DNA of 64,000 nt. Source: Stomoxys calcitrans (taxonomy: Eukaryota; Arthropoda; Insecta; Diptera; Muscidae). The position numbers and the translations under genes are program-made. Where the stretch lies: the NCBI RefSeq assembly GCF_963082655.1, contig NC_081555.1, positions 26,594,776 through 26,658,775 on the forward strand. The letters are read 5' to 3'. The notes under the pieces were generated by a model that was not told the DNA's origin, did no database searches, and saw nothing but the letters and a program-made list of their open reading frames with translations. Positions 7,871 through 64,000 of this stretch are shown piece by piece. Every line of letters starts with the position of its first letter. Position 1 is the first letter of the stretch.

Positions 7871-7941
7871 ATTTTTATAACCACCTCCGAAGCATGGGGG
7901 TTCATTCTTCCGTCTGGTCATCTATCTGCTGAAATCATGCT

Positions 7942-15625: not shown

Positions 15626-15644
15626 GCTCTTTCCAGAAAATTGC

Positions 15645-22650: not shown

Positions 22651-23595
22651 CAAAAACAAGTAAGAGCGTGCTAAGTTCAGCCGGGCCGAATCGCATTTGT
22701 CGAGTTCTATGCGCAGTATCTCTTTTTAGGCAAACAAAGAATATTAAATAAGAACTTTTATGCTATTGGAGCTATGTTGATCATTGTATAAGTCATTGTG
22801 TAATATTTCAGTTCATTCGGATAATAGTTGCGCCTTGTAGGGGTTCAAGAAGCAAAATCGGGAGATCGGTTTATATTGGAGCTGTATCAAACTATTGATC
22901 GATTCAGACTATATTGAATAAGTATGTTGAAGGTCATGAGATAAGCCGTTGTACAAATTTTCTGCCAAAATCGGATAAAAATTCCGCCTTCTAGAAGCTC
23001 AAGAAGTCAAGATCCCAGATCGGTTTATATAGCAGCTATATCAGGTTATGTACCGATTTGCGCCATACTTCGTACAGTTATTGGAAGTCATAACAAAACA
23101 CCTCATGCAAAATTTCAGCCAAATCGGAAAAGAATTGCGTTCTCTATTGGCTCAAGACGTCAAGATCCAAGATCGGTTTATATTACAGCTATACCAGATT
23201 ATGAAACGAATTGAATCATACTTAGCGCAGTTGTTGGAAGTGGCACCAAAATACCATGTGCAAAATTTCAGTCAAATCGGACGAGAATTGCACCCTCTAG
23301 AGGCTCAAGAAGGCAAGACCCGAGATCGGTTTATATGGCAGCTATATCAAAATATGAACCGATTTGGCCCATTTACAATCCCAATTAGTGCAAAATTTCA
23401 AGCGGCTAGCTTTACTCTTTCGAAAGTCAGCGTGCTTTCGACAGACAGACGGACGGAAATGGCTAGATCGATTTAAAATGACATAACAGTCAAGAATTTA
23501 TATACTTTATGGGGTCTCAGGCGCATATTTCGAGGTGTTACAAACAGAATGATGAAATTAGTATACCCCCATCCTATGTTGGAGGGTATAAAAAA
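22651..23595. repeat. Foldback repeat, GGCCGGGCCG-tip family
   Basis: It begins AACAAGTAAGAGCGTGCTAA with the tip TTCAGCCGGGCCGAAT. It continues through GATCGGTTTATATNGNAGC units and ends with the complement of the GTCCGTCTGTC stretch and GGAGGGTATAAAAAA. The 142-codon ORF inside (23,048-23,476) is read through repeated units and is not a gene. Confidence 0.8.
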
Positions 23596-32200: not shown

Positions 32201-32545
32201 TCATAATGGGACTCATAGGACTACGAGCTAACTTATGTAATGGGCATGCGGGGAAGATGATGAGACGTTGAAGCATTTCCTTTGTCATTGGCCGGCTTTC
32301 GCGTCTAACAGATACCGGCACTTAGGTGGAGACACAATACCAGACATGAACCAACTTAGGGGAGTGGTATTGAAGACAATTAAGGATTTTGTAAGTAGCA
32401 TGGAATTCCTAACTTAAAATTTTCTTTTTAGAGGTTACTTTATAGTTTTCAGAGCGCACAACAAGCAGATTACTGGCTTAGGTGTGTGTCCATAATGGCA
32501 TGGGGCGGATTAATATCTGCACCCTCTTTTTAACCTAACTCGGTG
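29204..32545 (+). pseudogene. LINE-A, longest copy: endonuclease, RT, RNase H, 3' tail
   Basis: It begins within the AP-endonuclease domain (LIGCDANSHHISWGS near 29,350; FVNRIREEVLDVT). RT follows: IDIE near 30,665, then a deletion of about 29 codons relative to the copies at 18.0 and 34.7 kb; QGTPQGG; and the active-site box FTDDVIILL near 30,850. A long frame runs 30,795-31,679 (LNVNPEKTEIYLF, ILDRKLNWKCHI). After a frameshift, RNase H (31,555-32,271) shows its acidic residues in order: YTDGSK, AETRAITE, FTDSK and NERADD. The end has a partial CCHC knuckle and the tail CTTTTTAACCTAACT. Frameshifts and the RT deletion make it inactive. It carries both an endonuclease and RNase H, as in the I/LOA/R1 group. 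Confidence 0.88.
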
Positions 32546-41695: not shown

Positions 41696-41739
41696 TAAAC
41701 ATGCCATCTTTAAATTATTGTCTTTTAAAAAATGTCTTA

Positions 41740-42115
41740 GAAATTTTGTTTAAATGAAAATTTCTTAAAAATGTTCACTTTAAAGAACATTTCTTAGCAA
41801 ATCGGTCTTTAGCGAAAATTTCTGGAATATTTCCTCTTTAGAGAAAATTCCATGGAAATATTGTCTTTGGAGGAAATTTCTTAGATATCTGTTCCATGAA
41901 ACAATGTCTTAGAAATTTTGTCTTTAGAGCTAATTTCTTTGAAATTTTGTCTTTAGAAAAAATTTCTTAGAAATTTTGCCTTTAGTGATAATTCAAGAAA
42001 AGTTATCTTTAGAGATAATTTCTTGAAATGTTGTCCTTATAGAAAATTTTTTAGAAATTTTGTCCTTAGAGAAAATTTTTTGTAAATTTTGTTTGTTTTT
42101 TTTTTTTTTTCAGTG
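41740..42115. repeat. Minisatellite of TTTAGAGAAAATTTCTTAG type
   Basis: About a dozen imperfect 27-30-bp repeats: TTTAGAGATAATTTCTTGA and AAATTTTGTC. It ends in a T-rich stretch and a CAG. Confidence 0.75.
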
Positions 42116-44310: not shown

Positions 44311-46149
44311 ATAGTCCAGAAGTCATTGTGCGGTATCCCCATACAAGCCGCCATGTGGCCTATGGCACAGAAGTGTGCTCCCTGTTTCTTAATATAATGG
44401 CTGTGGGCGAAGTTGCAATTTTATACACATCATATGCCACGAAGTCAATACTGTCAATCAACTACAAAGCTCCTCTTGATGTCACATCCCTTAAGGATAC
44501 CCATTTCGTAATGATAGATTGTCACATTCTTCGTCCTGGGCGTAATTGATGATTAATAATATTTCAAAAACCAATTAGAAGCCATACTGGGAAAACATTT
44601 CCTCCAGCCCTTTAAAACCCATACAATACCCTTGCTTTCTTGCTCCAGCTAAACAATTTTCAACATCCACCATTCAATATTCATGCCCTCTGCAAATCCC
44701 TTTACACCTTATGTTATACTACAAAATTAAATTGATAATTTATATCACAGAGAGCCAGGGACCTAACTCCACAATACAAAATTTACACTTTGGAGCTTTT
44801 AACAGCGTCATACTACGCTTTTTCATGCAATGAGCAAAAAAATACATTGAATTTGAACAAAAATGATTCACAAAAGCAAATGTCCCTAACTAGCAACTGT
44901 GAAATAAATACAAAAAAAGGATATACTATGCTCGTAAAATAAATATGTTACCCGCCAAGTCAAAAAAAAAATGGAATTCCATATGGACAAAAGACACGGA
45001 GAGTATACGCACACACTCTCTCTCTCTCTCTCTCTCAGTGCCGCTCTATATGTATGTGTGTGTGACCAACAAATCAGAGTGGCACAAAGGCATTTGTTTC
45101 ATATTTATTTTCGAGTACCATAGCTCGAAATGTATTTATTTTTTCCAATTTCCTCTGATGGCTTAAAGGTACAATAAAAATGTCAAAGGGATTTTCCCCA
45201 TGTAGTCCATTTCTTTTGTTGCACGTTGCCAAAGCAAAAGCTACAAATAATAGCTTGGAAAATGACAAATTTTATGGTCGAAAAGGAATTTCTAAAAAGC
45301 ACACTTAACTAGAAATTTATAACAAATTGAACTCTTTGCTTCGGGAGGGGGGACGAAAAAAAGGAAGCTGCCTATGATGATGACTAGGAGCAAAATATTG
45401 GAAATTTAAAAGCAAATAGCCTAAATGTTTGCTCGCAAATTGTATATGGGCAGACCATTCCTTGGGTATTGGGTAAACATTTTTCAGACTGCCCAATTGT
45501 GTGTTGTTTTGTTTTGTCAAGCCTAAAAGCATGCTTCATCAAAATGTAAATAGCTGAGTGGAATCTAAATTACCCCCATCGCATAATGGAAAGTGTTAAT
45601 GATAATGAGACAGCAAAAAGGACTTAAATGGATACCAAGCATTCTCTTATATTTTCTTTTGTAGACAATGCCTAAGGTCTTTGCAAAGGAATTTTTGTGA
45701 ATAAATAAAGGATATGAAGACAAATTTCTTTGTTTTCGATTTTAGTTTGGGTTCTACCGTTTAAATGAAGAAGAAATGAGTTCCATTACATGTTTATCAA
45801 TGCAAACTTATCAAATAAAAATATCTCCAAGGATGTATATAAGGGTGCACATAAGGCAAAGATACTAATGAGGAAGACATGAATTTTGTTACATGTTTAT
45901 CAAGGCAAACTTATCAAATAAAAATGGCTCCAAGAAATATTTATTTCTTATTTTAGAATTTCCTTTTAAATAATACAAAAACTCATGCCATTGAATTTGC
46001 TAGGTCTTATTTTATTAAAAATTAAATATAAAAATACAAAAAGCCGCTTAGCAAAGGACAATTTTGTAACCATTGTCTTCTCAAACTACTTTAGGGCGTT
46101 GGCGTTTCCAAATTGCCAGCAAATATGTGTGTGAAGATAAATTCCGAAT
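44311..46149. other. Unassigned DNA left of the foldback transposon
   Basis: It has a (CT)n tract at 45,016-45,036 and a ~45-bp direct repeat (ACATGTTTATCAATGCAAAC at 45,789 and its variant at about 45,890). ORFs are short and unremarkable. This stretch is probably the host DNA into which the giant element inserted. Confidence 0.4.
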
Positions 46150-46446
46150 TTAACTAGCAGAGACACAAACCGCTTTGTTAACAGAGTGCGAGAGAGAGTA
46201 ACAGAAGTATTAACAGAGATCCACTGAGGGGTTAGCAGAGCTCTGTAAATACTTAACAGAACCAAAAAAACAAGAGAAATTAATTAAATTTCTTACTTTT
46301 TATCAATTTTTGCAAATATTTGTAAAAAAAAAGTAAAACCATAACAAAATTTGGAGTAAAATATCAATGCTTTAAATCAAAAACACCAAATTAAAAATAT
46401 CTATTACCGTAGTACTGAGAAAAATGAAAAATTTATAAAAAAAATA

Positions 46447-49400
46447 TTCTGGGCAGGATTATGACCAATGGTCCTGGAGGACATCTAAGAATTCTACAAG
46501 GTACTACCATACATCGTTGGAAAGGTCACGATAGGAGCTTTCCAAAACATGTCCTTATTCGAAAATCGAGCAGTTGGTTTTTTCAAATTCCTGTCTTTTT
46601 TTAAGAATTTCTCGAAAAAAAATCTGGACAGGATTATGGCCAACGCTCCTGAAGGACATCTAAGAATTCTACAAGGTACTACCATACATCGTTGGAAAGG
46701 TGACGATGTGTGCTTTCCAAAACATGTCTTTATTCGAAAATCGAGCAGTTGGTTTTTTCAAATTCCTGTCTTTTTTAAAAAAATTTTCAAAAAAATTCTG
46801 GAAAGGATTATGGCCAACGCTCCTGGAGGACATCTAAGAATTCTACAAGGTACTACCATACATCGTTGGAAAGGTGACGATGTGTGCTTTCCAAAACATG
46901 TCTTTATTCGAAAATCGAGCAGTTGGTTTTTTCAAATTCCTGTCTTTTTTAAAAAAATTCTGGAAAAAAATCGGGACAGGATAATGTCCAATGCTCCTGG
47001 AGGACATCTAAGAATTCTACAAGGTACTACCATACATCGTTGGAAAGGTGACGATGTGTGCTTTCCAAAACATGTCTTTATTCAAAAATCGAGCAGTTGG
47101 TTTTTTCAAATTCCTGTCTTTTTTAAAAAAATTCTCAAAAAAAAATCTGGACAGGATAATGGCCAATGCTCCTGGAGGATATCTAAGAATTCTACAAGGT
47201 ACTACCATACATCGTTGGAAAGGTGACGATGTGTGCTTTTCAAAACATGCCCTTATTCGAAAATCGAGCAGTTGGTTTTTTCAAATTCCTGTCTTTTTTA
47301 AAAAAATTCTCAAAAAAATTCTTGAAAGGATTATGGCCAACGCTCCTGGAGGACATCTAAGAATTCTACAAGGTACTACCATACATCGTTGGAAAGGTGA
47401 CGATGTGTGCTTTCCAAAACATGTCTTTATTCGAAAATCGAGCAGTTGGTTTTTTCAAATTCCTGTCTTTTTTAAAAAAATTTTCAAAAAAATTCTGGAA
47501 AGGATTATGGCCAACGCTCCTGGAGGATATCTAAGAATTCTACAAGGTACTACCATACATCGTTGGAAAGGTGACGATGTGTGCTTTTCAAAACATGCCC
47601 TTATTCGAAAATCGAGCAGTTGGTTTTTTCAAATTCCTGTCTTTTTTAAAAAAATTTTCAAAAAAATTCTGGAAAGGATTATGGCCAACGCTCCTGGAGG
47701 ACATCTAAGAATTCTACAAGGTACTACCATACATCGTTGGAAAGGTGACGATGTGTGCTTTCCAAAACATGTCCTTATTCGAAAATCGAGCAGTTGGTTT
47801 TTTCAAATTCCTGTCTTTTTTAAAAAAATTCTGGAAAAAAAATCGGGACAGGATAATGTCCAATGCTCCTGGAGGACATCTAAGAATTCTACAAGGTACT
47901 ACCATACATCGTTGGAAAGGTGACGATGTATGCTTTTCAAAACATGCCCTTATTCGAAAATCGAGCAGTTGGTTTTTTCAAATTCCTGTCTTTTTTAAAA
48001 AAATTCTCAAAAAAATTCTTGAAAGGATTATGGCCAACGCTCCTGGAGGACATCTAAGAATTCTACAAGGTACTACCATACATCGTTGGAAAGGTGACGA
48101 TGTGTGCTTTTCAAAACATGCCCTTATTCGAAAATCGAGCAGTTGGTTTTTTCAAATTCCTGTCTTTTTTAAAAAAATTTTCAAAAAAATTCTGGAAAGG
48201 ATTATGGCCAACGCTCCTGGAGGACATCTAAGAATTCTACAAGGTACTACCATACATCGTTGGAAAGGTGACGATGTGTGCTTTCCAAAACATGTCCTTA
48301 TTCGAAAATCGAGCAGTTGGTTTTTTCAAATTCCTGTCTTTTTTAAAAAAATTTTCAAAAAAATTCTGGAAAGGATTATGGCCAACGCTCCTGGAGGACA
48401 TCTAAGAATTCTACAAGGTACTACCATACATCGTTGGAAAGGTGACGATGTGTGCTTTCCAAAACATGCCCTTATTCGAAAATCGAGCAGTTGGTTTTTT
48501 CAAATTCCTGTCTTTTTTAAAAAAATTCTCAAAAAAAAATCTGGACAGGATAATGGCCAATGCTCCTGGAGGACATCTAAGAATTCTACAAGGTACTACC
48601 ATACATCGTTGGAAAGGTGACGATGTGTGCTTTTCAAAACATGCCCTTATTCGAAAATCGAGCAGTTGGTTTTTTCAAATTCCTGTCTTTTTTAAAAAAA
48701 TTCTCAAAAAAAAATCTGGACAGGATAATGGCCAATGCTCCTGGAGGACATCTAAGAATTCTACAAGGTACTACCATACATCGTTGGAAAGGTGACGATG
48801 TGTGCTTTCCAAAACATGCCCTTATTCGAAAATCGAGCAGTTGGTTTTTTCAAATTCCTGTCTTTTTTAAAAAAATTCTCAAAAAAAATCTGGACAGGAT
48901 AATGGCCAATGCTCCTGGAGGACATCTAAGAATTCTACAAGGTACTACCATACATCGTTGGAAAGGTGACGATGTGTGCTTTTCAAAACATGCCCTTATT
49001 CGAAAATCGAGCAGTTGGTTTTTTCAAATTCCTGTCTTTTTTAAAAAAATTCTTGAAAGGATTATGGCCAACGCTCCTGGAGGACATCTAAGAATTCTAC
49101 AAGGTACTACCATACATCGTTGGAAAGGTGACGATGTGTGCTTTTCAAAACATGCCCTTATTCGAAAATCGAGCAGTTGGTTTTTTCAAATTCCTGTCTT
49201 TTTTAAAAAAATTCTCAAAAAAAAATCTCGACAGGATAATGGCCAATGCTCCTGGAGGATATCTAAGAATTCTACAAGGTACTACCATACATCGTTGGAA
49301 AGGTGACGATGTATGCTTTTCAAAACATGCCCTTATTCGAAAATCGAGCAGTTGGTTTTTTCAAATTCCTGTCTTTTTTAAAAAAATTCTCAAAAAAATT

Positions 49401-51145
49401 CTTGAAAGGATTATGGCCAACGCTCCTGGAGGACATCTAAGAATTCTACAAGGTACTACCATACATCGTTGGAAAGGTGACGATGTGTGCTTTTCAAAAC
49501 ATGCCCTTATTCGAAAATCGAGCAGTTGGTTTTTTCAAATTCCTGTCTTTTTTAAAAAAATTCTCAAAAAAATTCTTGAAAGGATAATGGCCAATGCTCC
49601 TGGAGGACATCTAAGAATTCTACAAGGTACTACCATACATCGTTGGAAAGGTGACGATGTGTGCTTTCCAAAACATGTCTTTATTCGAAAATCGAGCAGT
49701 TGGTTTTTTCAAATTCCTGTCTTTTTTAAAAAAATTTTCAAAAAAAATTCTGGAAAGGATTATGGCCAACGCTCCTGGAGGACATCTAAGAATTCTACAA
49801 GGTACTACCATACATCGTTGGAAAGGTGACGATGTGTGCTTTTCAAAACATGTCTTTATTCGAAAATCGAGCAGTTGGTTTTTTCAAATTCCTGTCTTTT
49901 TTAAAAAAATTCTGGAAAAAAATCGGGACAGGATAATGTCCAATGCTCCTGGAGGACATCTAAGAATTCTACAAGGTACTACCATACATCGTTGGAAAGG
50001 TGACGATGTGTGCTTTCCAAAACATGTCTTTATTCGAAAATCGAGCAGTTGGTTTTTTCAAATTCCTGTCTTTTTTAAAAAAATTCTCAAAAAAATTCTT
50101 GAAAGGATTATGGCCAACGCTCCTGGAGGACATCTAAGAATTCTACAAGGTACTACCATACATCGTTGGAAAGGTGACGATGTGTGCTTTTCAAAACATG
50201 TCTTTATTCGAAAATCGAGCAGTTGGTTTTTTCAAATTCCTGTCTTTTTTAAAAAAATTCTCAAAAAAATTCTTGAAAGGATAATGGCCAATGCTCCTGG
50301 AGGACATCTAAGAATTCTATAAGGTACTACCATACATCGTTGGAAAGGTGACGATGTGTGCTTTCCAAAACATGTCTTTATTCGAAAATCGAGCAGTTGG
50401 TTTTTTCAAATTCCTGTCTTTTTTAAAAAAATTTTCAAAAAAAATTCTGGAAAGGATTATGGCCAACGCTCCTGGAGGACATCTAAGAATTCTACAAGGT
50501 ACTACCATACATCGTTGGAAAGGTGACGATGTGTGCTTTTCAAAACATGTCTTTATTCGAAAATCGAGCAGTTGGTTTTTTCAAATTCCTGTCTTTTTTA
50601 AAAAAATTCTGGAAAAAAATCGGGACAGGATAATGTCCAATGCTCCTGGAGGACATCTAAGAATTCTACAAGGTACTACCATACATCGTTGGAAAGGTGA
50701 CGATGTGTGCTTTCCAAAACATGTCTTTATTCGAAAATCGAGCAGTTGGTTTTTTCAAATTCCTGTCTTTTTTAAAAAAATTCTCAAAAAAATTCTTGAA
50801 AGGATTATGGCCAACGCTCCTGGAGGACATCTAAGAATTCTACAAGGTACTACCATACATCGTTGGAAAGGTGACGATGTGTGCTTTTCAAAACATGTCT
50901 TTATTCGAAAATCGAGCAGTTGGTTTTTTCAAATTCCTGTCTTTTTTAAAAAAATTCTCAAAAAAATTCTTGAAAGGATTATGGCCAACGCTCCTGGAGG
51001 ACATCTAAGAATTCTACAAGGTACTACCATACATCGTTGGAAAGGTGACGATGTGTGCTTTCCAAAACATGTCTCCATTCGAAAATCGAACAGTTGGTTT
51101 TTTCATATTCCTGCCCTTTTTGAAAATGTATCGAAAAAAAATTTG
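46447..51145 (+). repeat. Left arm: ~27 tandem 174/175-bp units
   Basis: The phrase ACATCGTTGGAAAGGTGACG recurs 27 times (from 46,511 to 51,031) at 174- or 175-bp spacing; one unit near 49,041 is 12 bp shorter. Units differ at few sites, for example ATTCTTGAAAGGATTATG versus AATCTGGACAGGATAATG versus AATCGGGACAGGATAATG. Because 174 = 3 x 58, one frame stays open for many units (58-residue repeat with HRWKGDDVCFPKH and IMANAPGGHLRILQG); each 175-bp unit shifts it. The long ORFs on the plus strand, and 63-codon ORFs on the minus strand, are most simply products of the repeat. The outermost unit is the most diverged. Confidence 0.93.
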
Positions 51146-51431
51146 TTTGAGAGAGAATGTGGTTGTCTAGCCGTTCTGTTGTGTACTCTATGTCGCTCTT
51201 TTCAGTTACAAACATTGAATGTTAGAGCTTTCTGTAAAAATGTTAATTACATATAATCATATACATGGGAATGTATACTTTTCAACTCTATAAAATAATT
51301 CATAAGTTTTCCCATAGAGGTCGCTTGTGTTATTAGCGTACTCGCATATAGCGTCTGCGCTGTTTACTTTTTCCACTTCTGTTCCAAGCTTTTTTGAACA
51401 TAGTATGAGGTGTCTATACTTTACTTTATCT
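51146..51431 (+). repeat. Left arm, unique inner segment
   Basis: Non-tandem sequence from GAGAGAGAATGTGGTTG to CTTTACTTTATCT, repeated as its complement at 62,415-62,700. The repeat-frame ORF runs into it and stops at 51,256. Identity is high, with small differences near the inner edge (ATACTT versus ATATAT). Confidence 0.85.
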
Positions 51432-51436
51432 ATGCC

Positions 51437-52101
51437 AGGCATGGACACATATTTTTGGCTCTGTTCGTGAGTACAATTGTTTTGCTCTACACGCGAAATA
51501 AAATTACAATGACAAAATGGTTCGAAAATAGTTATTTTTTTACAATTAATTTCAAATGATTTTTTTTTTTTTTGGGTTGAACTTGTGGCTTTAATGATGA
51601 GAGCCTTTCTATTGATAGATACTTATTGAGCAAATGTTTCATTACAATTTGAACATGACTGTGTTTGCTTCCAAATTAAGCATCTCCAAAAGATGTCTGG
51701 TAAGGAACAAATTGAGTTTTCATTCATTCGTCGTTATTTGTGTTTATGTTGCCTGATCAGTAATTAATAATGTACGTAGTTTGTTTCTATTTCAACGTGT
51801 ATAAAGAGAGCTAGTATCCACCAAACAAGAATAAGCTGCTAAGTGCAAATGCTCAAAAGAGTTCCTTTCCCCATGCCTGCTCTAAGCCAGCGAGGGCCAA
51901 ATCGGTACCCTGTGATTTTTCTCTCAGCAGAGAAGTTTTTTTTTGTTACGAGCGAGCTCTCTTTCCACAAGCAGAAAATAAAACAAACCACGAACATTCG
52001 GTGAATAATATTGTAGGTTAGGCAATTTGCAATTTTATTTCGCATGTAGACAAAACAATTGTACTCACGCAAACATAGCCAAATAATTGGGCCCACCGCT
52101 G
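51437..52101. repeat. Nested inverted-repeat element (MITE-like)
   Basis: Left arm GTGAGTACAATTGTTTTG (with flanking GCGAAATAAAATTACAA) at about 51,466-51,512 is inverted at about 52,023-52,076. The outer bases, CAGGCATGGACAC at the left and CAGCGGTGGGCCC as the complement of the right end, are weakly alike and hAT-like. No clear 8-bp target duplication is seen. A further forward copy of the same tip starts at 52,115 and a fragment lies near 55,465-55,545. Confidence 0.5.
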
Positions 52102-52539
52102 TCATAGTCTATAACAGGCATTGGCACTGCTTTTTGACTATTTGTGCGTGAGTACAATTGTTCATTCAGAGTTTGAAATAATTCTCTAACTGTAGTAGAT
52201 GCAATGTAAGCAAGACCATTGGTCGTGAGTGAGAGTGCAAAATTACTCTCTGTTTGCTAAATGTTAATTGGTTATCGTTCCTCAAATGCTTCTTCTCGCC
52301 AGCCGGCAATCAAAACAACTCTTTCTCTCTCTCTCTCTCTCTGATCTGTCAGTGCAGAACATGGGGAAATGTTGGAGCGTAGCAAATTTCTCTTGCAGCG
52401 TTCCAATTGCAAAAGCTGCACCATTAGCTTCTTTGAACTGCGACATGCGTTAATCCTGCGCAACGTAGGTGTTGTTACAAAAAACAAAAAAAGAAATGGA
52501 ATCATTCTAATGAAAGCATTTGTTAAGTGAGGTTTCATT

Positions 52540-52860
52540 ATGGAGCAAAACAAAAAAACACTTTTCCGCCTTAGTGCGAAACTATTTTATATGGACTTAA
52601 AAGAGAAAAAAAACGTTTCTATAAAAGATTTTTTAAATATTGAAAAAAGTGTTTTATACGAAGACTTTATTAAAAAAATTAATAACTTTCATTATATTAA
52701 AACTCTACACAATTTTGTCGGAAATAGACAAATGAAATTGAAGCTGTATGGATTGTTTAAATATACCGTATGTATTGTAATAATCATCTGGACAAAATGT
52801 CTTACACAATTTTATTTGGTTGTGAAGAAAAATGAAAAAGTGGGTGGTCTCATGTTATAA
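52540..52860 (+). CDS. Hypothetical 106-aa protein, copy 1
   Basis: I do not recognise this protein. It starts MEQNKKTLFRLSAK and ends KKNEKVGGLML. It is lysine-rich, with a hydrophobic stretch (YTVCIVIIIW, about residues 75-84) that could be a single membrane segment or a buried helix. No catalytic motif is visible. It lies between the left arm and the transposase, on the same strand. An identical peptide is encoded 1,338 bp downstream. Retention of an intact frame in both copies is weak evidence of coding function, because the duplication is recent. It may instead be a remnant of an older, longer ORF; no intron signals were identified. Confidence that it is a real gene is low to moderate. 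Confidence 0.4.
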   Translation: MEQNKKTLFRLSAKLFYMDLKEKKNVSIKDFLNIEKSVLYEDFIKKINNFHYIKTLHNFVGNRQMKLKLYGLFKYTVCIVIIIWTKCLTQFYLVVKKNEKVGGLML

Positions 52861-53877
52861 TCTAACAAAAGGTCGATAAATAGTTTGATGATTTGAAGAG
52901 GAGAATGTCCAGGATTAGATGCAATGGTTTTGCTTTGCCCACCACCGCAGAGTAGAATAAAATCGAAAAAATAGTAAAAAATCTACCGTTCATTAAAGTT
53001 TAAAGATATCTCACTGAAATTTTTAATGGTTACAGGTAAGATGTTAGCGAGATCATGTGCAAAATTTCAAGGCCCTAGGTGGTCATCCCCCCTTAAGTTG
53101 GTAGATTAGGCTTGGTTTTTGGACCAATTTTAAAAATTTTTTGCTGGATAGTGGTCAAAATTCCCTATAAAAAAGTCCCCTTGAGGTCTACAATAGAAGT
53201 TTAGTTACTGGACTATGGAAAGCCTAAGGAAAAATTTAAAGTTAAAGCAAAAAAATACAAAAAAAAAAAAAAAAACAAAATGCGGACAGTTAAGCAATTG
53301 AAATCGATTCATGTTGCTTTGCTAGTGTGTAATAGCTTAAACTGCGTGCTTAGGAATTTAAGTAAAGTTATTCTGATTTTTTGGTTGCTTTTGCTGTTAC
53401 GTTGCTTGTTTCTTTTTCGTAGTCATAGGTAACAGCGTGCCATCCTCCACAAGATTATTATGAGCATTTATTTTTGTGGTGGCATGCTGCTGTTCTCTGG
53501 CACACACATACGTTTCACATAATTTTTCTACGCCGCTTTCTCGCGCGCAGTGAGAGTGCTAAATTACTCTCTGTCTGCTAAATGTTTATTGGTTATCGTT
53601 CGACAATGCTCAATCAATCAAAACAACTCTTTCTCTCTCTCTCTCTCTCTCTCTCTGATCTGTCAGTGCAGAACATGGAGAAATGTTGGAGCGTAGCAAA
53701 TTTCTTTTTCAGCGCTCCAATTGCAAAAGCTGCTACACGGATGGTACAGTTTATTCATCGAAATGAAGCACCATTAGATTCTTTGAACTGCAACATGCGT
53801 TATTCCTGTGCAACGTAGGTGTTGTTACAAAAAATAGAATCATTGTAGTGAAAGCATTTGTCAAGTGAGGTTTCATT

Positions 53878-54198
53878 ATGGAGCAAAACAAAAAAACACT
53901 TTTCCGCCTTAGTGCGAAACTATTTTATATGGATTTAAAAGAGAAAAAAAACGTTTCTATAAAAGATTTTTTAAATATTGAAAAAAGTGTTTTATACGAA
54001 GACTTTATTAAAAAAATTAATAACTTTCATTATATTAAAACTCTACACAATTTTGTCGGAAATAGACAAATGAAATTGAAGCTGTATGGATTGTTTAAAT
54101 ATACCGTATGTATTGTAATAATCATCTGGACAAAATGTCTTACACAATTTTATTTGGTTGTGAAGAAAAATGAAAAAGTGGGTGGTCTCATGTTATAA
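53878..54198 (+). CDS. Hypothetical 106-aa protein, copy 2
   Basis: The peptide is identical to that at 52,540-52,860. The one nucleotide difference I found (GAC to GAT for the Asp in YMDLKEKK) is silent. The upstream flank differs more: it includes an extra ACACGGATGGTACAGTTTATTC stretch absent from copy 1. Function is unknown. A single silent change fits either very recent duplication, gene conversion, or purifying selection, and cannot separate them. Confidence 0.4.
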   Translation: MEQNKKTLFRLSAKLFYMDLKEKKNVSIKDFLNIEKSVLYEDFIKKINNFHYIKTLHNFVGNRQMKLKLYGLFKYTVCIVIIIWTKCLTQFYLVVKKNEKVGGLML

Positions 54199-55009
54199 TC
54201 TAACAAAAGGTCGATAAATAGTTTGATGATTTGAAGAGGAGAATGTCCAGGATTAGATGCAATGGTTTTGCTTTGCCCACCACCGCAGAGTAGAATAAAA
54301 TCGAAAAAATAGTAAAAAATCTACCGTTCATTAAAGTTTAAAGATATCTCACTGAAATTTTTAATGGTTACAGGTAAGATGTTAGCGAGATCATGTGCAA
54401 AATTTCAAGGCCCTAGGTGGTCATCCCCCCTTAAGTTGGTAGATTAGGCTTGGTTTTTGGACCAATTTTAAAAATTTTTTGCTGGATAGTGGTCAAAATT
54501 CCCTATAAAAAAGTCCCCTTGAGGTCTACAATAGAAGTTTAGTTACTGGACTATGGAAAGCCTAAGGAAAAATTTAAAGTTAAAGCAAAAAAATACAAAA
54601 AAAAAAAAAAAAACAAAATGCTGACAGTTAAGCAATTGAAATCGATTCATGTTGCTTTGCTAGTGTGTAATAGCTTAAACTGCGTGCTTAGGAATTTAAG
54701 TAAAGTTATTCTGATTTTTTGGTTGCTTTTGCTGTTACGTTGCTTGTTTCTTTTTCGCAGTCAGAGCTAAAAGCGAGCCATTCTCTTCATGTTTATTGGC
54801 ATTTATTTTTGTGGTTGCATGCTGCTGTTCTCTAGCACACACATATGTTTCACTTTATTTTTCTATGCCGCTTGAATATGTTGTGTGTACGTGTAACAGA
54901 TGCCCGCAGCATAAGAAATAATGTGGAAATGCGTGCGTGTGTGCGCCCATAACAATGAAGCTATGGCTTTGACACCAACATTACGCACATTGCGTGATCT
55001 CTCAGAAGC

Positions 55010-55240
55010 AAAGAGACAGAGTAAAATTACTTTCTGGATGCAGCGAGAGCAATGTTCTCAAAATTGCTTTCTCTGCTTAATGTTTATTGGTTCTTTCGAC
55101 GATTGCTTCTTCTCGTCTGCCAACAATTTAAACATTTCTCTCTCTATCTGAGCTGTCAGCGCAGAAAATGGAATGTACGTGCAATACAATTGCTAGAGCT
55201 TTTTATGTACAGTTTATTCAAGCAAAAAAGCATCTTTTTG
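55010..55240 (+). repeat. Third, partial copy of the duplicated unit
   Basis: AAAATTACTTTCTGGATGC, TGCTTAATGTTTATTGGTTC, TTCTTCTCGTCTGCCAAC and TCTCTATCTGAGCTGTCAGC parallel 52,235-52,365. It breaks off before the 106-codon ORF and runs into a LINE-A tail. Confidence 0.6.
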
Positions 55241-55317
55241 TGCTTTTTTGACCTGGGACGTTTGTCGAGTGCCTTAAATTATTTAGCAGACATTTTGAAA
55301 AGTTATTATTTATTACC

Positions 55318-55460
55318 CGCCTTTCGTGGCTAACAGACACCGGTACTTAAGTGACGCCACAATACCAGACTTAGAGGAGCGTGTTATGGAAAGTAATTAG
55401 GGATTTTGTTAGTAGAACAGAATTCCTGAATTAGATTTTCTTTTCCGAGTTTACTTTTAA
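55318..55460 (+). pseudogene. LINE-A 3' tail inside the transposon
   Basis: CGCCTTTCGTGGCTAACAGA, ACCGGTACTTAAGTGACGCC and ACAATACCAGAC match the stop-proximal LINE-A sequence at 32,295-32,440 (CTTTCGCGTCTAACAGATAC...). It is about 140 bp, 5'-truncated, with no coding ability. Confidence 0.65.
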
Positions 55461-55789
55461 GTATTTAGAGAAACGGTGGTCACAGTTTTTTAGAAATGTA
55501 TGCGTGAGTAAAATTATTTTGTTTGCACGCAAAACACAAGAAAGGATAAGCCGGTCAAAATGACCGGTAAAAGATAATTTAAATCAAAAATTTTATAAAA
55601 ATTTTTTAACCAGTCCACCAATTTGAATGCTACAGCTCCTAAAACCAACAGATTATAAAATTAAGTAAAGTTAAACCAATATGTTAATGCTATAGACTCG
55701 GATTGACGAAGGGACTGTACCATGAAGATGTAAATGAACACAGGAGTGGAGTTGTACACAAAAACCCTAATAAGTGTGGCATATTGTGA

Positions 55790-55942
55790 GACGATAAAAC
55801 GTTGGCACAAAAGCAACATAATCGAAAAAAGTCAACTTTGGCTCAAATCTTGCACAACAGTAACACTGCTAACAACCAATTGCAATTGCTGCACGTAAAT
55901 AATCAATGTTATTGTTTTTGTCAGATTTTCTCAAAGGGGGAG
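55790..55942 (+). CDS. Candidate 5' exon of the transposase gene
   Basis: A frame open from 55,790 reads TLAQKQHNRKKSTLAQ and later NNQCYCFCQIFSKGE, and ends at a near-perfect donor, GAG|GTAAGTTTA, with GT at 55,943-55,944. Joined in phase to the acceptor at 56,324 (TGTATTCGTAG), the frame continues KGE|DSTCSSLKDITENAR. No in-frame ATG lies in this piece, so the true start is upstream or in another exon. A second frame, 55,734-55,898 (starting MNTGVELYTKTLISV), overlaps it and may hold the true N-terminus if there is an indel. The CxCxC cluster could be part of a small metal-binding knuckle, but that is only a guess. Confidence 0.5.
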
Positions 55943-56324
55943 GTAAGTTTATCTCAAAATTCCACTTAGAACAAATCGAATTTTGTTAAGACTTCAATCC
56001 TTTTCTTGAACCTTTGAAAATTATAAATCTCTCTCCATTCTGTTATTTGATATGTTATTACGATTTGCTATAAACTTTCTAAGTTGTGTTAAATTGTGTA
56101 TATCAATTAATTTTGTTTTCACACTTTTTGAATTAGCCTAGAATTGGGTAAAACTATTTAAAGTTATCCTCCGAAAATGTTGTTGATACAAAGCATATGA
56201 TTTAAGATTCGGTCAGGACGACCTTAACGCCACTTTAATTGTTATACTGCAGCCCTTTGAAAATTTTATATTTAACAACATATATATGCTAATAAGTTAT
56301 ACTTTACTATTTGTGTATTCGTAG
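55943..56324 (+). other. Predicted 382-bp intron of the transposase gene
   Basis: GTAAGT at the left edge, and TTTACTATTTGTGTATTCGTAG at the right edge with a pyrimidine-rich lead. It is AT-rich with stops in all frames I followed. Splicing keeps the downstream frame open. It is not verified by RNA. Confidence 0.5.
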
Positions 56325-57221
56325 GACTCAACTTGTTCAAGTCTTAAAGATATTACAGAAAATGCTAGAGAATACTGTGAAAAAAAGGGAATTCTGGAAC
56401 AATTTTCCACAATGTTATCGATTTTGGAAATTGAAAGCGACGACCCAGCTGATACTCAAGACCATAACAGATATTCGGTTCTGTCAGGGGACGACAGTTT
56501 TGAAAATACATACTTGAATTTGGACCAAGAAAATGACTACATTTTATTCCCAGAAAAGTGCACATGTTCAGGAAGAAGTTCTTTTCAAAATCAATCAATA
56601 AATATTGGTTGCACAAACCAAATGGATCTTCCAAGTAACAATGAATGTGTCTTGTCAGGAGAAAAACCTTTGGGTAGCGAAGAAATAGGAAATATTAATG
56701 AGAATGAAGATGTTGAAAATGACGCCAGAAAAACTACTTCAACACCCAAAACTTATTTGTTAAAAACAGTTAATTCAACAAATTCTTTTTATGAAAATAT
56801 TGACTTTTGCTCAACAAGAAACAAAAATATTTCGCATAATTGCACCATTAATGTTAGTAATGATTCCGATTCTCTTATAGAAGAATACAATGTATTAAGA
56901 AAAAAAATTTTAATTTCAAAATTGCCGACCAAACGACCCACAATTGTATCTCCAGAAGTTGAAGGTTTCAAACAAAGTGTATGTAAGTACAAGAAAATAG
57001 ATTGTGACATTAAATTCTCTAAAGAGGAAGAACTCTTTTTATTAAGAAGTAGAGAAAATCGAAAAATGTATTTAAATTTCATGCAAGATCTTCTCAGGAC
57101 CAAATTTGGAATTTTTAATAATGTCTGCCCAATAAATTTTAGTAGCCATAAATTCCACAAAAAAAAAAATAGTCCTTTATGCCAAATGTATGTATTATTT
57201 AAGTGGTTGCGGGGCGTATAA
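56325..57221 (+). CDS. Transposase, N-terminal part (ORF-A)
   Basis: The frame is open from the predicted acceptor: DSTCSSLKDITENAREYCEK, then KGILEQFSTM, with the first ATG at 56,412 giving 269 residues. Because coding sense extends upstream of that ATG, it is probably not the true start. The first half is acidic and Asn/Ser-rich (LEIESDDPADTQDHN, DENEDVENDAR-like), probably flexible. The second half is more basic (KILISKLPTKRPTIV, RENRKMYLNFMQDLL) and may touch DNA. The stop is at 57,219. ORF-B, in the +1 frame, is open from 57,136, so the two frames overlap by 86 bases around an A11 run (57,159-57,169). One protein made through a frameshift, or one ORF broken by a one-base indel, is the simplest reading. 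Confidence 0.72.
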   Translation, partial: DSTCSSLKDITENAREYCEKKGILEQFSTMLSILEIESDDPADTQDHNRYSVLSGDDSFENTYLNLDQENDYILFPEKCTCSGRSSFQNQSINIGCTNQMDLPSNNECVLSGEKPLGSEEIGNINENEDVENDARKTTSTPKTYLLKTVNSTNSFYENIDFCSTRNKNISHNCTINVSNDSDSLIEEYNVLRKKILISKLPTKRPTIVSPEVEGFKQSVCKYKKIDCDIKFSKEEELFLLRSRENRKMYLNFMQDLLRTKFGIFNNVCPINFSSHKFHKKKNSPLCQMYVLFKWLRGV

Positions 57222-59556
57222 ATTTGTAATTGATTTCGATAGCATCATTACTGTGTACGCTTCCAGTTTAGAAATCACTCACCCCAAAACTGCCAAAAAA
57301 CATCAACTCAGAGGAGTTCGCAGATTGTTAGCAAAACAACATATTAAATATCTGCGGCCAACAAACTGGCGAGACAAATTACTCATAAAGCAATCAAAGC
57401 ATTTAAAGGCACTAGGGAATGACCAAGGAGTCGTATCGAAAGATGCAGCTAGAAGAATAAAATTTGAGCAAGTGCGGTCAATTGATAGAGATGCTGACAG
57501 CCACATCGATATTTGCAAAATGTATTTAGACAAAAATTGGCGTACATATATACAAAAAGTAGCGCTCCCACAAGAAATTTATTTAATTTCCAAACGGCCA
57601 ATAGAAATTCTCCAAGCCAAAAATTTTGCTTTACTGAAACTTAGCCACAACACTTTATTTTTTGATGCCACTGGGAGCATTATGAGAAAGTATGAGCCCG
57701 AGTCAAAAAGAGTATTTTTGTATTCTCTCGTGGCTCACCTCGATGCTGGTCCGAAAAAGAGAGGTACGTTGCTTCCAGTGGCCGAAGGATTTTTATGCAG
57801 CCACTATGCAAACTGTGTCGCGCGTTTTCTAATGTCTTTAGAGACTTTTTGTGCTGCAAATAAGCTTAAATGGCCAATATGCAAACGTGTTTGCACAGAT
57901 TGGAGCACTGTTCTAATTAATGCAATATTGAAGGCATGGAACTGTGTAACCCTTGAAGGTTATATAGATCAATGCTTTTATTTATGCAAGAAAAATGAAT
58001 ATCCAAAGTTTATCGTTATACAACTATGTTGCGCCCATTTTATTAGGATTGTGGAAAAAGACATAAAAGCTTTTCAAAAAGACAAAGAAATTGCAAGTTT
58101 CTATAAACTGCAGGTGTGGAAGGCCATTAATATTTCAAAAATTGATGACTTTTTCATTTGGCTAAGGTGCTTTTTGGTTGTACTTTTGAGTCCAACCGAA
58201 ACAGACGATGTGATATACTCTATAGATAACCTTAAAAATTTTGTAGATGATGAACCGTATGACAATTGGGAAGAAGAACACATGTCCGTTGCCACGTCTG
58301 TTTTTACCTCGACCTACAAGAATAGTCCGTTTTTCCATGAGGGTTCAAAATTATTTCAAAAAGTTCAGTCCGAAGTAAAAAGCGCCACCAATACAAACAG
58401 TTTTTATTCCGAAGAATTTGCAAACGTTATCCTAAAAAAATATGTTCCATATACTCCATTGTGGACAAACATTGTCGGCGTATTTGTAGATAATATAAAC
58501 ACAAGAATTTCCAATAGTCCGGTCGAGGGTTACTTCAATATTAAAAAAAACATCACATTGGATGGAAGGCGCAACATAAAACCTGCCGACTATGTAAGGT
58601 TGTCTATAAATTATATGCAAGCTCGTCTAGTTGAAGCTGAAGATGCTCTTTCAACACTAATTAGTGACACTTCAGAACCAGTTGCTTGCAACCTAAAAAT
58701 GGAGGAAGAAACTTGGAAGAGGACTCCGAAAAAAGTACAGTCACAAATCACCAGCCAAATGAAATTGGAAAAAATCTTGTCAACTTTTAAGAATTTACCA
58801 CGCAAATTTGACAAACGCTATATAGCCCTTAAATTTCAAAATGTTCATTCGAGCGTGCAATCGGAATTAATAGACGCGCCAACTATAGATTTCATAGAAT
58901 TAGAATCTTTAAATAAAAAAAAGGAGTTATATAGCAACTTAATTGATATATATATAGAAATATTAATAAAAAATTCAGCGAAAAAAGCCTTTTCCACTTG
59001 CTGTGAAATAGGCAGAGATATTTTTATTGCACAGAATTCAAATATACAGATACCTCTGCAAAACTTCGACATTTTGTTAATTCCCGTATTTGAACCAGGC
59101 CATTTTACTCTTGTATATGTCGACACAGTTGATAAGACATTCTCCTACTTAAACCCCCTAGGGGAAGATTTTTCTGATGTTGAAAAATTTTTAAAGACTT
59201 TCAAAAAACACACAAACGCTTTAGAATATAAGCCAAAGCAAATAAAACATGGTCGTCAAAAAGACAATTTTAATTGCGGAATTTATGTGTGCCAGTTTGC
59301 CGAAGCAATTTTAAACAAAAAAAACCTAGAAGACATAGAAGACCCAAATATTTACAGAGGCCTAATAAAAAAAGTACTGCTAGAGAGTGCAGATGACATG
59401 ACAAAAGTATGTCTTCATTGCGGGTCCTATTGTGATGAAAATCTCTGCAAATCATGCGATCGTCCGATCTGCGGCGGTTGCTTTCGTTTTTATTATAAAA
59501 ATGAAGACAACTTTGAGACATGTCAATTCTGTTCCGCTGCAACATCGAAATATTAG
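57190..59556 (+). CDS. MULE-type transposase with C48-like protease domain (ORF-B)
   Basis: This 788-residue frame (open from 57,136) has three parts. First, a Mutator-like DDE core: FFDATGS (Asp159), VCTDWS (Asp237), a CCAHF motif (Cys280/Cys281...His283) as in the MULE C-x2-H, and NSPVEGYFN (Glu446, the position of the third acid). Second, residues about 610-730 look like an Ulp1/SENP-type C48 protease: PGHFTLVYVD (His638), SYLNPLG (Asn655 where Asp is usual) and QKDNFNCGIYVC (Gln690 and Cys696, spaced Q-x5-C as in the family). Third, the cysteine-rich end CLHCGSYCDENLCKSCDRPI and CGGCFR...CQFC resembles a RING- or treble-clef-like zinc site. It would cut and join the element ends; the protease role is unknown. 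It resembles in plan the NOF protein of Drosophila FB elements, but I could not align them. Long intact coding argues for recent activity. Confidence 0.85.
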   Translation: MYYLSGCGAYKFVIDFDSIITVYASSLEITHPKTAKKHQLRGVRRLLAKQHIKYLRPTNWRDKLLIKQSKHLKALGNDQGVVSKDAARRIKFEQVRSIDRDADSHIDICKMYLDKNWRTYIQKVALPQEIYLISKRPIEILQAKNFALLKLSHNTLFFDATGSIMRKYEPESKRVFLYSLVAHLDAGPKKRGTLLPVAEGFLCSHYANCVARFLMSLETFCAANKLKWPICKRVCTDWSTVLINAILKAWNCVTLEGYIDQCFYLCKKNEYPKFIVIQLCCAHFIRIVEKDIKAFQKDKEIASFYKLQVWKAINISKIDDFFIWLRCFLVVLLSPTETDDVIYSIDNLKNFVDDEPYDNWEEEHMSVATSVFTSTYKNSPFFHEGSKLFQKVQSEVKSATNTNSFYSEEFANVILKKYVPYTPLWTNIVGVFVDNINTRISNSPVEGYFNIKKNITLDGRRNIKPADYVRLSINYMQARLVEAEDALSTLISDTSEPVACNLKMEEETWKRTPKKVQSQITSQMKLEKILSTFKNLPRKFDKRYIALKFQNVHSSVQSELIDAPTIDFIELESLNKKKELYSNLIDIYIEILIKNSAKKAFSTCCEIGRDIFIAQNSNIQIPLQNFDILLIPVFEPGHFTLVYVDTVDKTFSYLNPLGEDFSDVEKFLKTFKKHTNALEYKPKQIKHGRQKDNFNCGIYVCQFAEAILNKKNLEDIEDPNIYRGLIKKVLLESADDMTKVCLHCGSYCDENLCKSCDRPICGGCFRFYYKNEDNFETCQFCSAATSKY

Positions 59557-59603
59557 GCACTATAAGTATTTGAATATAATCAAACTTTTTTATGTATATC
59601 TTG

Positions 59604-60540
59604 AGATGGGTTTCTACCAGGTGAATACCCAACGCTTGGGTATTTATTGGGAAAATACCAATTTTTTGGAAATTTATAATTTTGCAGATATCTTGGGCAT
59701 AACAACAGTTCCAAACAATTTTTGATGATTTTGTATGTTAATAAACCCGACCTTCTGATCCCATAAAATCGGATTTTAGCTATATATAGCCGCTCTATAG
59801 ACCGATCTCCAGATTTAAAGTCTTGAGGCAATAAATTGGTAATTTTTTTTATCCGATTGCTATGAAATTTGACACAGTGAGTTCTTGTAGACCCCTACCC
59901 ATTTCTGTGAAGTGTGGTTCAGAATGGACTGTATTTGGATATAGCTGCCCTATAGACTGATCGCCCGATATCCCGATATAAGGTATTGCAGCCATAAAAG
60001 GTATTGCAGCAATACCATAAGGTATTGCAGCCATACAGTTATTATACGTATTCGATGAAATTTGGTGCAATGTTTTCTGGTAAACCCCTACAAATTTCAT
60101 CGAATTCGCGTAATAACTGTATCTTTTATGGCTGCAATACCCTATATCGGGATATCGGGCGATCATTCTATAGGGCAGCTATATCCAAATATAGTCCATT
60201 CTGAACCACACTTCACAGAAATGGGTAGGGGTCTACAAGAACTCACTGTGTCAAATTTCATCGCAATCGGATAAAAAATTACCAATTTATTGGCTCAAAA
60301 CTTTAAGTTTGGAGATCGGTCTATATAGCGGCTATATATAACTAAAATCCGATTTTGTGGGATTAGAAGGTCGGGTGTATAAACAAAGAATACAAAATTG
60401 TTTGGAAAATTTTGTTATACCCAAGATATCTGCAAAATTATAAATACCCAGATTTTGGGTATAAATGGGTAAATACCCGGGTATTTATCCAATTTACCGG
60501 GTAAATTCCTTTTGGGTTTTTACCTATCGCCCATTTCTAT
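59604..60540. repeat. Nested ~0.93-kb palindromic foldback repeat
   Basis: Arms at about 59,620-60,063 and 60,092-60,535 are inverted copies around a centre near 60,078. Matching pieces include CACTTCACAGAAATGGGTAG with its complement, ATAAATTGGTAATTTTTT with its complement, and CGATATCCCGATATA with its complement. The tips are GGGTATTTATTGGG-like. It is related to the right half of the repeat at 3.4-5.3 kb. The 105- and 70-codon ORFs on opposite strands encode the same peptide because of the palindrome and are not genes. Confidence 0.85.
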
Positions 60541-61829
60541 GTATGTAGAATCGAATATTTGACAACAATGCCGAATATTCCACTTTATATCATTCCGGTA
60601 TTATTTAAAATAATCACCCCGATTTTGAACATAATGCTGAAAAATATGGACATACACTTCGCTCAGTCGTACACGAAAATTGAGTACGACATATATATTA
60701 AGGGTGAATTGCCGCTATTTCGTTCAATTTAAGTCCAAAGCTTCTGTGTGTTTTTTTTTACGTACTAACAATTTAATCAATTTAAACATTTAATCATTTT
60801 TCTAGGAGTTTTTCATGCTGAAATGCGCGCAACATTTTAAAACTTTGGGTTTTCACGATACTTTTCACCTCTACTGTGCTAAAGGGTATTATGACCTTGT
60901 GTATATATTACATCAGGTCATGTCAGTCCGATTGTACGTTTATTAGTCCGTCCTTTTGACCGTCTGTTTGTCCATCCGTCTGCCATTTTTTGTTTGTCTG
61001 TCTGTCAATGTGTTTTTGTTATTAAAGTACGTGTCGCATTTTTTATCAGATTGTCACCAAATTTTGCACATGTTACTTATTGGCTCACATAACTCCCATT
61101 GGCACGAGCGCTATTTATCTTGGAAAATCGGTTCTAGTGTATATAAAGCTCCCAAACATGTTTTTCTTCCGATATGGTTGTATTTGGCAAGCTTTAAGCC
61201 TAATCTTTAACACATTTAACATGCATCGATTCATTTAATATATGTTTTATTTGATATGCTTAGTTTTGACTCTTAAACAATTGACACATAAAACTGAATT
61301 TGCAGCTGTTATTTAGAGGCTTTTAAATACTTTGGTTCCATTTTTCTTTAATTCGTTTTTTTTTTTTTGGATAATTTTATGGCTACTTAATATATACTTG
61401 AGCTTCTTTATTAAATTGAACTACTTAATTTTTGAAACACTAATATTTTATTATAAAATATATGCAAATATTAATTTTTTGGAATTCAAATGCACATTAA
61501 TAAGAAACATGCTCTCAAACTATCACAAAAATTATTCCCTACGTAAATTCATTAACAGAAATAATTATAAAATCTTCAGTAATTATTATGACAACTATGA
61601 ATTCCATTTTTTTAAACAACTTATAAACAAATTTAATTTTAACAACCAAATTCTGAAATTTACCCTTTCTTGATAGTTACATGAATTTTCGCCCATAATG
61701 TGCTCTTCTATATACGAGTATGTACATACAAATAGGTACGCACGAGTGCTTACACACCCTTGTGAAATTTGTGTTTAACGCAAAAAATGGTTGTTGCATT
61801 TTTTATGAAAAACTCCAACACCAAAAGTT
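60541..61829. other. Interior of transposon, no gene seen
   Basis: A degraded foldback-like patch (GTCCGTCCTTTTGACCG, TTGTCTGTCTGTC) occurs at about 60,900-61,200. A 113-codon ORF at 61,332-61,673 is very Phe/Asn/Ile/Lys-rich from AT-rich DNA and is probably chance. Confidence 0.45.
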
Positions 61830-62310
61830 AGAAATCTACTACTTATCAAGTTTTAACCATGAAAGACTGAACTTTTATAAAAAAATTATATTTTAAGTTT
61901 AAACCATGAAAGACGGAAATCTTATAAAATAAACCAAAGCAAACCAAAATTGGAACATAACAATATGCTTTAATTTTTTTGTGAAAAACCAAAATCTATA
62001 AATCTACTATTAATTAAGTTTTAAACATGAAAGACTGAACTTTTATAAAAAATTGGTTTGCATAGTAAACCAAAAAAACCTGTTTTGCAAAGCATACCAA
62101 AATAAACACACATACATTTTTAATTTTTTCTTTCTTTAATTTCCGAATATAAATTATATATTTTTTTGTTTTGAATGAGAAAGTCTTTTAAAGCTTAAAA
62201 CTATGTACTTTCATAACAATTTGTTTTACATATTTTGTAAGAGACCAACATTTAAAAATCTACTATTCATTAAGTTTTAAACATGAAAGACTGAGCTTTT
62301 ATAAAAACTT
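61830..62310. repeat. Diverged spaced repeats with CATGAAAGACTGA
   Basis: Four related blocks start near 61,833, 61,889, 62,002 and 62,258, with AAATCTACTATTAATTAAG, TTTTAAACATGAAAGACTG and ACTTTTATAAAAA. Spacing is irregular (56-256 bp). They lie just inside the right arm and have no match near the left arm. Confidence 0.6.
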
Positions 62311-62414
62311 TTAATAAAAAAATTTTTGTTAAGTTTAAAAGGTTTACATTCTAGAGCATTTTATCAAACAATAAAAAAATATAAGATACAACTTTGTTAT
62401 TAATTCTACATTTT

Positions 62415-64000
62415 AGATAAAGTAATATATAGACACCTCACACTATGTTCAAAAAAGCTTGGAACAGAAGTGGAAAAAGTAAACAGCGCAGACGCTATAT
62501 GCGAGTACGCTAATAACACAAGCGACCTCTATGGGAAAACTTATAAATTATTTTATAGAGTTGAAAAGTATACATTCCCATGTATATGATTATATGTAAT
62601 TAACATTTTTACAGAAAGCTCTAACATTCAATGTTTGTAACTGAAAAGAGCGACATAGAGTACACAACAGAACGGCTAGACAACCACATTCTCTCTCAAA
62701 CAAATTTTTTTTCGATACATTTTCAAAAAGGGCAGGAATTTGAAAAAACCAACTGTTCGATTTTCGAATGGAGACATGTTTTGGAAAGCACACATCGTCA
62801 CCTTTCCAACGATGTATGGTAGTACCTTGTAGAATTCTTAGATGTCCTCCAGGAGCGTTGGCCATAATCCTTTCAAGAATTTTTTTGAGAATTTTTTTAA
62901 AAAAGACAGGAATTTGAAAAAACCAACTGCTCGATTTTCGAATAAAGACATGTTTTGGAAAGCACACATCGTCACCTTTCCAACGATGTATGGTAGTACC
63001 TTGTAGAATTCTTAGATGTCCTCCAGGAGCATTGGCCATTATCCTGTCCAGATTTTTTTTGAGAATTTTTTTAAAAAAGACAGGAATTTGAAAAAACCAA
63101 CTGCTCGATTTTCGAATAAAGACATGTTTTGGAAAGCACACATCGTCACCTTTCCAACGATGTATGGTAGTACCTTGTAGAATTCTTAGATGTCCTCCAG
63201 GAGCATTGGCCATTATCCTGTCCAGATTTTTTTTTGAGAATTTTTTTAAAAAAGACAGGATTTTGAAAAAACCAACTGCTCGATTTTCGAATAAAGACAT
63301 GTTTTGGAAAGCACACATCGTCACCTTTCCAACGATGTATGGTAGTACCTTGTAGAATTCTTAGATGTCCTCCAGGAGCATTGGACATTATCCTGTCCCG
63401 ATTTTTTTCCAGAATTTTTTTAAAAAAGACAGGAATTTGAAAAAACCAACTGCTCGATTTTCGAATAAAGACATGTTTTGAAAAGCACACATCGTCACCT
63501 TTCCAACGATGTATGGTAGTACCTTGTAGAATTCTTAGATGTCCTCCAGGAGCGTTGGCCATAATCCTTTCCAGAATTTTTTTTGAAAATTTTTTTAAAA
63601 AAGACAGGAATTTGAAAAAACCAACTGCTCGATTTTCGAATAAAGACATGTTTTGGAAAGCACACATCGTCACCTTTCCAACGATGTATGGTAGTACCTT
63701 GTAGAATTCTTAGATGTCCTCCAGGAGCATTGGCCATTATCCTTTCAAGAATTTTTTTGAGAATTTTTTTAAAAAAGACAGGAATTTGAAAAAACCAACT
63801 GCTCGATTTTTGAATAAGGGCATGTTTTGAAAAGCACACATCGTCACCTTTCCAACGATGTATGGTAGTACCTTGTAGAATTCTTAGATATCCTCCAGGA
63901 GCATTGGCCATTATCCTGTCCAGATTTTTTTTTGAGAATTTTTTTAAAAAAGACAGGAATTTGAAAAAACCAACTGCTCGATTTTCGAATAAGGGCATGT
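62415..64000 (-). repeat. Right inverted arm, cut by the window
   Basis: This is the complement of the left arm: unique inner segment 62,415-62,700, then at least seven 174-bp units (the complement of ACATCGTTGGAAAGGTGACG appears about every 174 bp from about 62,797 onward). Unit types alternate as in the left arm, with variants such as ACATGTCTTTATTCG. The ORFs on the minus strand (for example 62,590-63,324) are repeat products. The arm is incomplete here. Confidence 0.92.

Follow-up and report, generated by a model that had tools for sequence, protein, structure and literature searches.

A giant element with inverted tandem-repeat arms in the stable fly, probably a foldback-type Mutator transposon

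In a 64,000-nucleotide stretch of the 1.07-Gb genome of the stable fly Stomoxys calcitrans (G000:C4:26594776-26658775; "the window" below) an array of tandem repeats is followed by a transposase gene and then by the same repeats in inverted orientation, which run off the right end. Do these parts make up one mobile element, where does it end and to which transposons does it belong? A sequence-only reading had suggested a foldback-type transposon resembling the Mutator-like elements (MULEs), with inverted arms of 174/175-bp units around an 11-kb interior with a transposase open reading frame (ORF), starting at 46170 and about 21 kb in size. We read the right side 10 kb further (L021) and set the element ends from a comparison of the two ends in five copies. 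The positions proposed for arrays, inverted arms and ORFs were confirmed. The complete element extends from 46125 to 66666 in window numbering and measures 20,542 bp, in agreement with the expected size; it lies at about the proposed place, but its true left end is 46125. The inverted array stops at ~66365, and the 9-bp target-site duplication (TSD) that had been suggested as a check is present at both outer ends. The element, whose family we call family A, has the following parts:

46116..46124 (unstranded): left 9-bp TSD CCAGCAAAT; the right copy directly follows base 66666, beyond the window
46125..46439 (+): outer terminal domain of the left arm, starting with ATGTGTGTGAAGATAAATTCCGAATTTAACTAG; its first ~60 bp are common to a divergent element, family C
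46440..51126 (+): left arm with 27 units of 174/175 bp in tandem (174-bp unit, 27.0 copies, 95% matches; alternative scoring: 349-bp dimer)
51127..51432 (+): inner end, without tandem units, of the left inverted repeat; 98.7% complementarity with 62414-62719
52228..53538 (+): copy 1 of a ~1.3-kb tandem duplication, single in alignments of the four other whole copies
53549..54873 (+): copy 2 of the same duplication
56325..57221 (+): 5' part of the transposase ORF, separated by a frame break from 57136-59556
57136..59556 (+): main part of the transposase, with a D-D-E core with CxxH, an Ulp1/C48 protease domain and a C-terminal Cys-rich finger
59604..60450 (unstranded): repeat with inverted halves, probably nested, sharing 76-91% similarity with a repeat at window 4276-5309
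62414..62719 (-): non-tandem inner end of the right inverted repeat
62720..64000 (-): right arm, of which the window contains the first 7.3 units; 21 anchors in the total array

Pairs of arm segments are complementary over up to 901 nt at 96% without gaps. The arm-interior-arm element with inverted tandem arms is real: as the sequence-only reading had proposed, we looked for further copies and found four more whole ones (C5a, C1a, C4b and C4c). The five lie on three contigs and share one plan with differing unit numbers, spanning 16.4-20.5 kb with 10-40 units per arm. The interior of the window copy is 11.4 kb long compared with 10.0-10.1 kb in the four others, because it is lengthened by the 1.3-kb tandem duplication. 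A copy at C1:76.08 Mb has a total length of 20,544 bp, near that of the window copy, and may share the duplication at 52228-54873.

In addition, a genome search was carried out with the outer 300 bp of the element, and the best 40 of 506 candidate ends were scored, a sample that leans to the best-matching and youngest ends and puts the number of ends at 40 or more, i.e., at least 40. When these were paired by eye, 17 head-to-head pairs with ends 2.2-20.5 kb apart were obtained, including the window copy and C5a, and 6 ends stayed unpaired. Reading 32 bases per end we found a perfect 9-bp TSD in all of the 15 further pairs. Three of the five whole copies also have a TSD, which gives 18 of the 20 family A copies examined. 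The arrangement is thus not a product of chance, because four further whole copies have the same plan and the 15 additional end pairs are flanked by duplications. Counting both strands, the 18 TSDs have 89% AT at position 5 and 50% at the ends. A tandem repeat of ~153 bp occurs in the window at 4494-5061, 22954-23366 and 24148-25016 and also near C5a, C1a, C4b and C4c; the insertion flanks at C4:102.99 and C1:230.82 Mb resemble it by eye, and the element may sometimes land there.

A protein search of the genome gave 52 matching stretches. Ten loci including the window match the window protein at 98-100% identity; seven of these have a full-length uninterrupted frame with 1,044 or 1,047 stop-free codons (C5a: a single ORF of 1,047 codons). 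The exceptions are the window, where the frame is split, a locus matching to residue 721 only and a locus split in two. The two window ORFs have no match in NCBIfam. The interiors of C1a, C4b and C4c are mutually 99.5-99.8% identical, and the transposase genes of C1a and C4c do not show a single difference. These sequences indicate that the family has been mobile recently and that some copies are very recent.

We next consider what kind of transposon this is. MULE transposases have a D-D-E motif in which CxxH stands between the second D and the E. The window protein is encoded by the frame-broken ORF at 56325-59556. The five motif residues D418, D496, C539, H542 and E705 are invariant in 14 of 14 sequences; in a set of 28 sequences the E is invariant and each of the other four is kept in at least 90%. 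The 9-bp TSD falls within the 8-11 bp of MULEs, and the long inverted arms of tandem units, varying between copies, are those of a foldback element. The Rehavkus group is described by a 9-bp TSD, a single ORF, a PHD finger and a minisatellite before the 3' terminal inverted repeat (TIR) (PMC6446971). Our element has the 9-bp TSD, the single ORF and repeat arrays, here at both ends; a C-terminal Cys-rich finger is visible by eye but has no Pfam PHD match in the window-family protein (at E≤1, PHD is matched by three and C1_1 by four of the 14 sequences). We conclude that the element is very probably a DNA transposon that moves by cut and paste, best filed as a giant variant in the Rehavkus/foldback branch of the Mutator (MULE/IS256-like) group; it is likened to Rehavkus by published descriptions, not by protein alignment.

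Several observations weigh against this assignment. At E≤1 Pfam finds C48 alone in the window protein and no transposase domain, and there is no MULE family among the 24 Pfam families matched by the 14 sequences. Foldseek gave no match in the PDB for the transposase core at E≤0.001, and the fold match to ISCth4 comes from a second-look aligner only, at 10% identity. Among the whole copies, C4b and C4c have no TSD, and the 15 additional pairs with TSDs were drawn from the best 40 of 506 candidates and are biased to young copies. For family C, the one copy whose ends were read showed no TSD by eye.

The element could instead be a true relative of FB-NOF rather than of Rehavkus, with a transposase orthologous to NOF. 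This is possible, though on balance doubtful. The foldback plan and the 9-bp TSD would fit, the NOF protein is comparable in size, and repeat libraries may treat NOF and Rehavkus as a single group. The protein searches returned nothing named NOF, nor anything named Rehavkus; since they reach near relatives only, this is no test. We also counted against a NOF orthologue that the title of a 2013 work by Badal, known from a reference list, calls FB-NOF non-autonomous.

The Rehavkus-like transposon is accompanied by two further lineages of like plan in the stable fly, whose transposases are each 42-43% identical to that of the window. Family B comprises the loci L012, L013, L014, L016/L019 and L017, which are one family at the DNA level and are 36-51% identical to the window protein over the matched parts (41-42% in the three near-full matches). 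Its arms consist of 156-bp tandem units, which are inverted on both sides of L012 and also adjoin L013, L014, L016 and L017. At L017 (G000:C2:165928636-165932973) 156-bp arrays lie on both sides near a coding part that is shortened; this family B copy seems to have arisen by internal deletion. Family C (L015) is 43% identical to the window protein; its element of ~23 kb has 176-bp units, ~38 in the left arm and ~44 in the right. The first ~60 bp of both its ends align closely with the family A terminus; then the likeness fades.

Outside the stable fly, a relative from the blow fly Lucilia cuprina is 35% identical over 83%. A search from a distant relative, P0010, gave 30 proteins including P0010 itself, of which 17 (P0009, P0010 and P0013-P0027) carry a YqaJ nuclease domain and match 41-100% of the query. 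Several of these are from beetles (Phaedon, Ceutorhynchus, Pyrocoelia, Callosobruchus), and some have PHD and C48 as well. With 844-1,526 aa the YqaJ relatives are candidates for a nuclease-protease-transposase fusion. The earlier suggestion of a new lineage in muscid flies is therefore too narrow. In viral contigs no relative was confirmed by a single scan for six peptide patterns, an approach limited to close relatives. In the stable fly a 34-kb stretch (G000:C1:32704483-32738641) has three near-equal 38% matches to residues 559-785, the protease part, only; here the protease was possibly moved or duplicated apart from the transposase.

Arrays of a ~29-bp repeat with similar consensus (TTTTGTCTTTAGAGAAAATTT...) are found in the window at 15620-16201 and 41712-42092 and, near family C, in L038 at 7871-7978. 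Two overlapping ORFs at window 30747-32271 (+) look by eye like the reverse transcriptase end and the RNase H of a broken retrotransposon without long terminal repeats.

How do the arms of the transposon evolve? By an anchor motif the left and right arms have 27 and 21 units in the window copy, 27 and 20 in C5a, 14 and 18 in C1a, 40 and 10 in C4b and 23 and 23 in C4c. The arms of C1a align with those of C4c and C4b at 96.0-96.9%, whereas the interiors are 99.5-99.8% identical; between the window copy and C5a the values are 98.2-98.5% for the arms and 99.0-99.6% for the interior. Re-sorting of the arms thus seems to outpace mutation of the interior, although part of the arm divergence reflects the alignment of non-corresponding units, because unit numbers differ between copies. 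In C4b the nine outer right units exactly match left units 1-9 in order, while in other elements the best matches of its right units average 97.6% identity; anchored at the outer ends, its two arms align at 99.0% over 2,073 bases. Such an exact match would be expected from copying of one arm onto the other. A further point against our reading has to be set beside this: in the other four copies the best matches of the right units in their own left arm and in other elements are similar (98.7/99.1, 99.2/99.8, 99.2/99.3 and 99.5/99.3%). Copying between arms therefore stands out in C4b only.

Long ORFs pass through the arms. We rejected a coding function of the units: of the three forward frames of the consensus two contain stops, and the first codon position is the most variable one in the open frame (0.060 versus 0.031 and 0.043). 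A nucleosome-phasing signal was likewise rejected: for the most AT-rich 40 bp per unit, 2000 shuffles gave P values of 0.085, 0.136 and 0.26 for families A, B and C, and since this test is not significant, an argument from the unit length has no support from composition.

Within the same kind of transposon the arm units could be the main transposase-binding platform, offering many secondary sites and thereby selecting for long arms. Tandem arms are present in all three lineages, and the arm repeats of Galileo are reported to carry secondary transposase sites (PMC4079207, PMC3573991). Against this, a terminus-like motif in the units was not above chance, as 654 of 1000 shuffles for A, 488 of 1000 for C and 266 of 1000 for B (whose units were tested against the A terminus) scored as high; a short degenerate site would escape this test. 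Nor do the units of the three families share homology beyond chance or A-tracts: 127 of 200 shuffles score as high for A and B and 52 of 200 for B and C, and the match of A and C, reached by 2 of 200 shuffles, is only an A-rich tract of 21 columns. From these comparisons we regard the A, B and C units as non-homologous beyond A-tracts and a platform of this kind as unlikely. That the element lies between two arrays by coincidence, the arms being separate satellite DNA or an artefact of assembly, is very improbable: tandem arrays are hard to assemble and C4b has two exactly matching nine-unit stretches, but conserved outer ends outside the arrays adjoin perfect 9-bp TSDs in 18 of 20 copies, and five whole copies on three contigs have one plan with differing unit numbers.

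To sum up, the sequences support a transposon of the Rehavkus/foldback branch with one transposase gene, conserved short termini, 9-bp TSDs, arms of variable unit number and shorter end pairs. The transposase would bind the conserved terminal ~60 bp, cut both ends and insert with a stagger of 9 bp, and the arm arrays would not be the primary recognition signal. Unequal exchange, or copying from one arm to the other, may lengthen, shorten and re-sort the arrays, and the ability of the arms to pair would facilitate this. Copies of reduced length, 2.2-12.9 kb, known from end pairs alone, would be mobilised in trans. The fused Ulp1/SENP-like domain may, speculatively, desumoylate host chromatin or factors bound to the transposon; SUMO has a role in silencing guided by PIWI-interacting RNA (piRNA) in flies. 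A broader proposal is offered very tentatively, as we think it rather unlikely to hold as a whole: the branch would keep its ~60-bp terminus and tandem arm units of roughly nucleosome length (156, 174/175 and 176 bp; 164 bp in Tribolium) and swap the arm sequence wholesale, the arms having a role in chromatin or in pairing instead of sequence-specific binding, and through its SUMO-protease domain the transposase would free the element from SUMO-dependent silencing, as a counter-defence against the piRNA/heterochromatin pathway.

With three lineages of one plan in a single genome, some copies being very recent with intact frames and clean TSDs, the stable fly makes it possible to test directly how foldback arms grow, what makes a unit of ~156-176 bp recur and which function a protease domain has in a transposase.

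The Drosophila elements FB and FB-NOF have, like the stable fly element, an interior enclosed by long inverted arms that consist of tandem units; unlike in the stable fly the arm units of FB are short. The TSD of FB4 is 9-10 bp (PMC8277862). According to PMC6446971 the known Rehavkus elements are very few and their descriptions are confined to Repbase; in that paper they serve as an outgroup of the MULEs. A 2026 survey of 322 arthropod MULEs of 1.4-10.0 kb (PMC13359780) also uses Rehavkus as outgroup and, as far as the accessible text shows, in no other role; its main text does not name Stomoxys, foldback, NOF or ULP. The elements of 16-23 kb described here exceed that size range. A search of the open literature by titles and the starts of abstracts found no publication on this element; Repbase or subscription journals may differ. 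Rehavkus-1_TC of Tribolium castaneum (Repbase) is likewise a DNA transposon with short tandem arrays of units of similar length (164 bp) in inverted termini (PMC10218199). It differs in its size of 9.5 kb with mostly five and eight units, whereas the five whole stable fly copies measure 16.4-20.5 kb with 10-40 units in each arm and family C ~23 kb, and an Ulp1 domain is unmentioned for it in the accessible part of that text. Tetris of Drosophila virilis also has tandem units, of ~220 bp, between outer flanking and inner domains and TSDs of 8-10 bp, but its TIRs reach 1,735 bp and it is described from non-autonomous copies only, with no transposase known (PMC4079207). The Phantom/Muta MULEs, e.g., Muta1 of Aedes, share TSDs of 8-9 bp and subterminal tandem repeats; Muta1 differs in being 3.2 kb long with 12-bp repeats and a transposase of 504 aa, and the text seen of PMC5225508 does not mention an Ulp1 domain. 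Galileo has foldback arms as well, its subfamily F with ~210-bp repeats in variable number and unequal between the arms of a copy, but belongs to the P superfamily (PMC3573991). The long arm unit, taken by the sequence-only reading as a distinguishing mark, is thus shared with Rehavkus-1_TC, Tetris and Galileo F, and the arm-interior-arm plan is already known. What is new in the stable fly is the size, the number of units and the co-residence of three lineages with unrelated arms, and, as far as these texts show, the Ulp1 domain.
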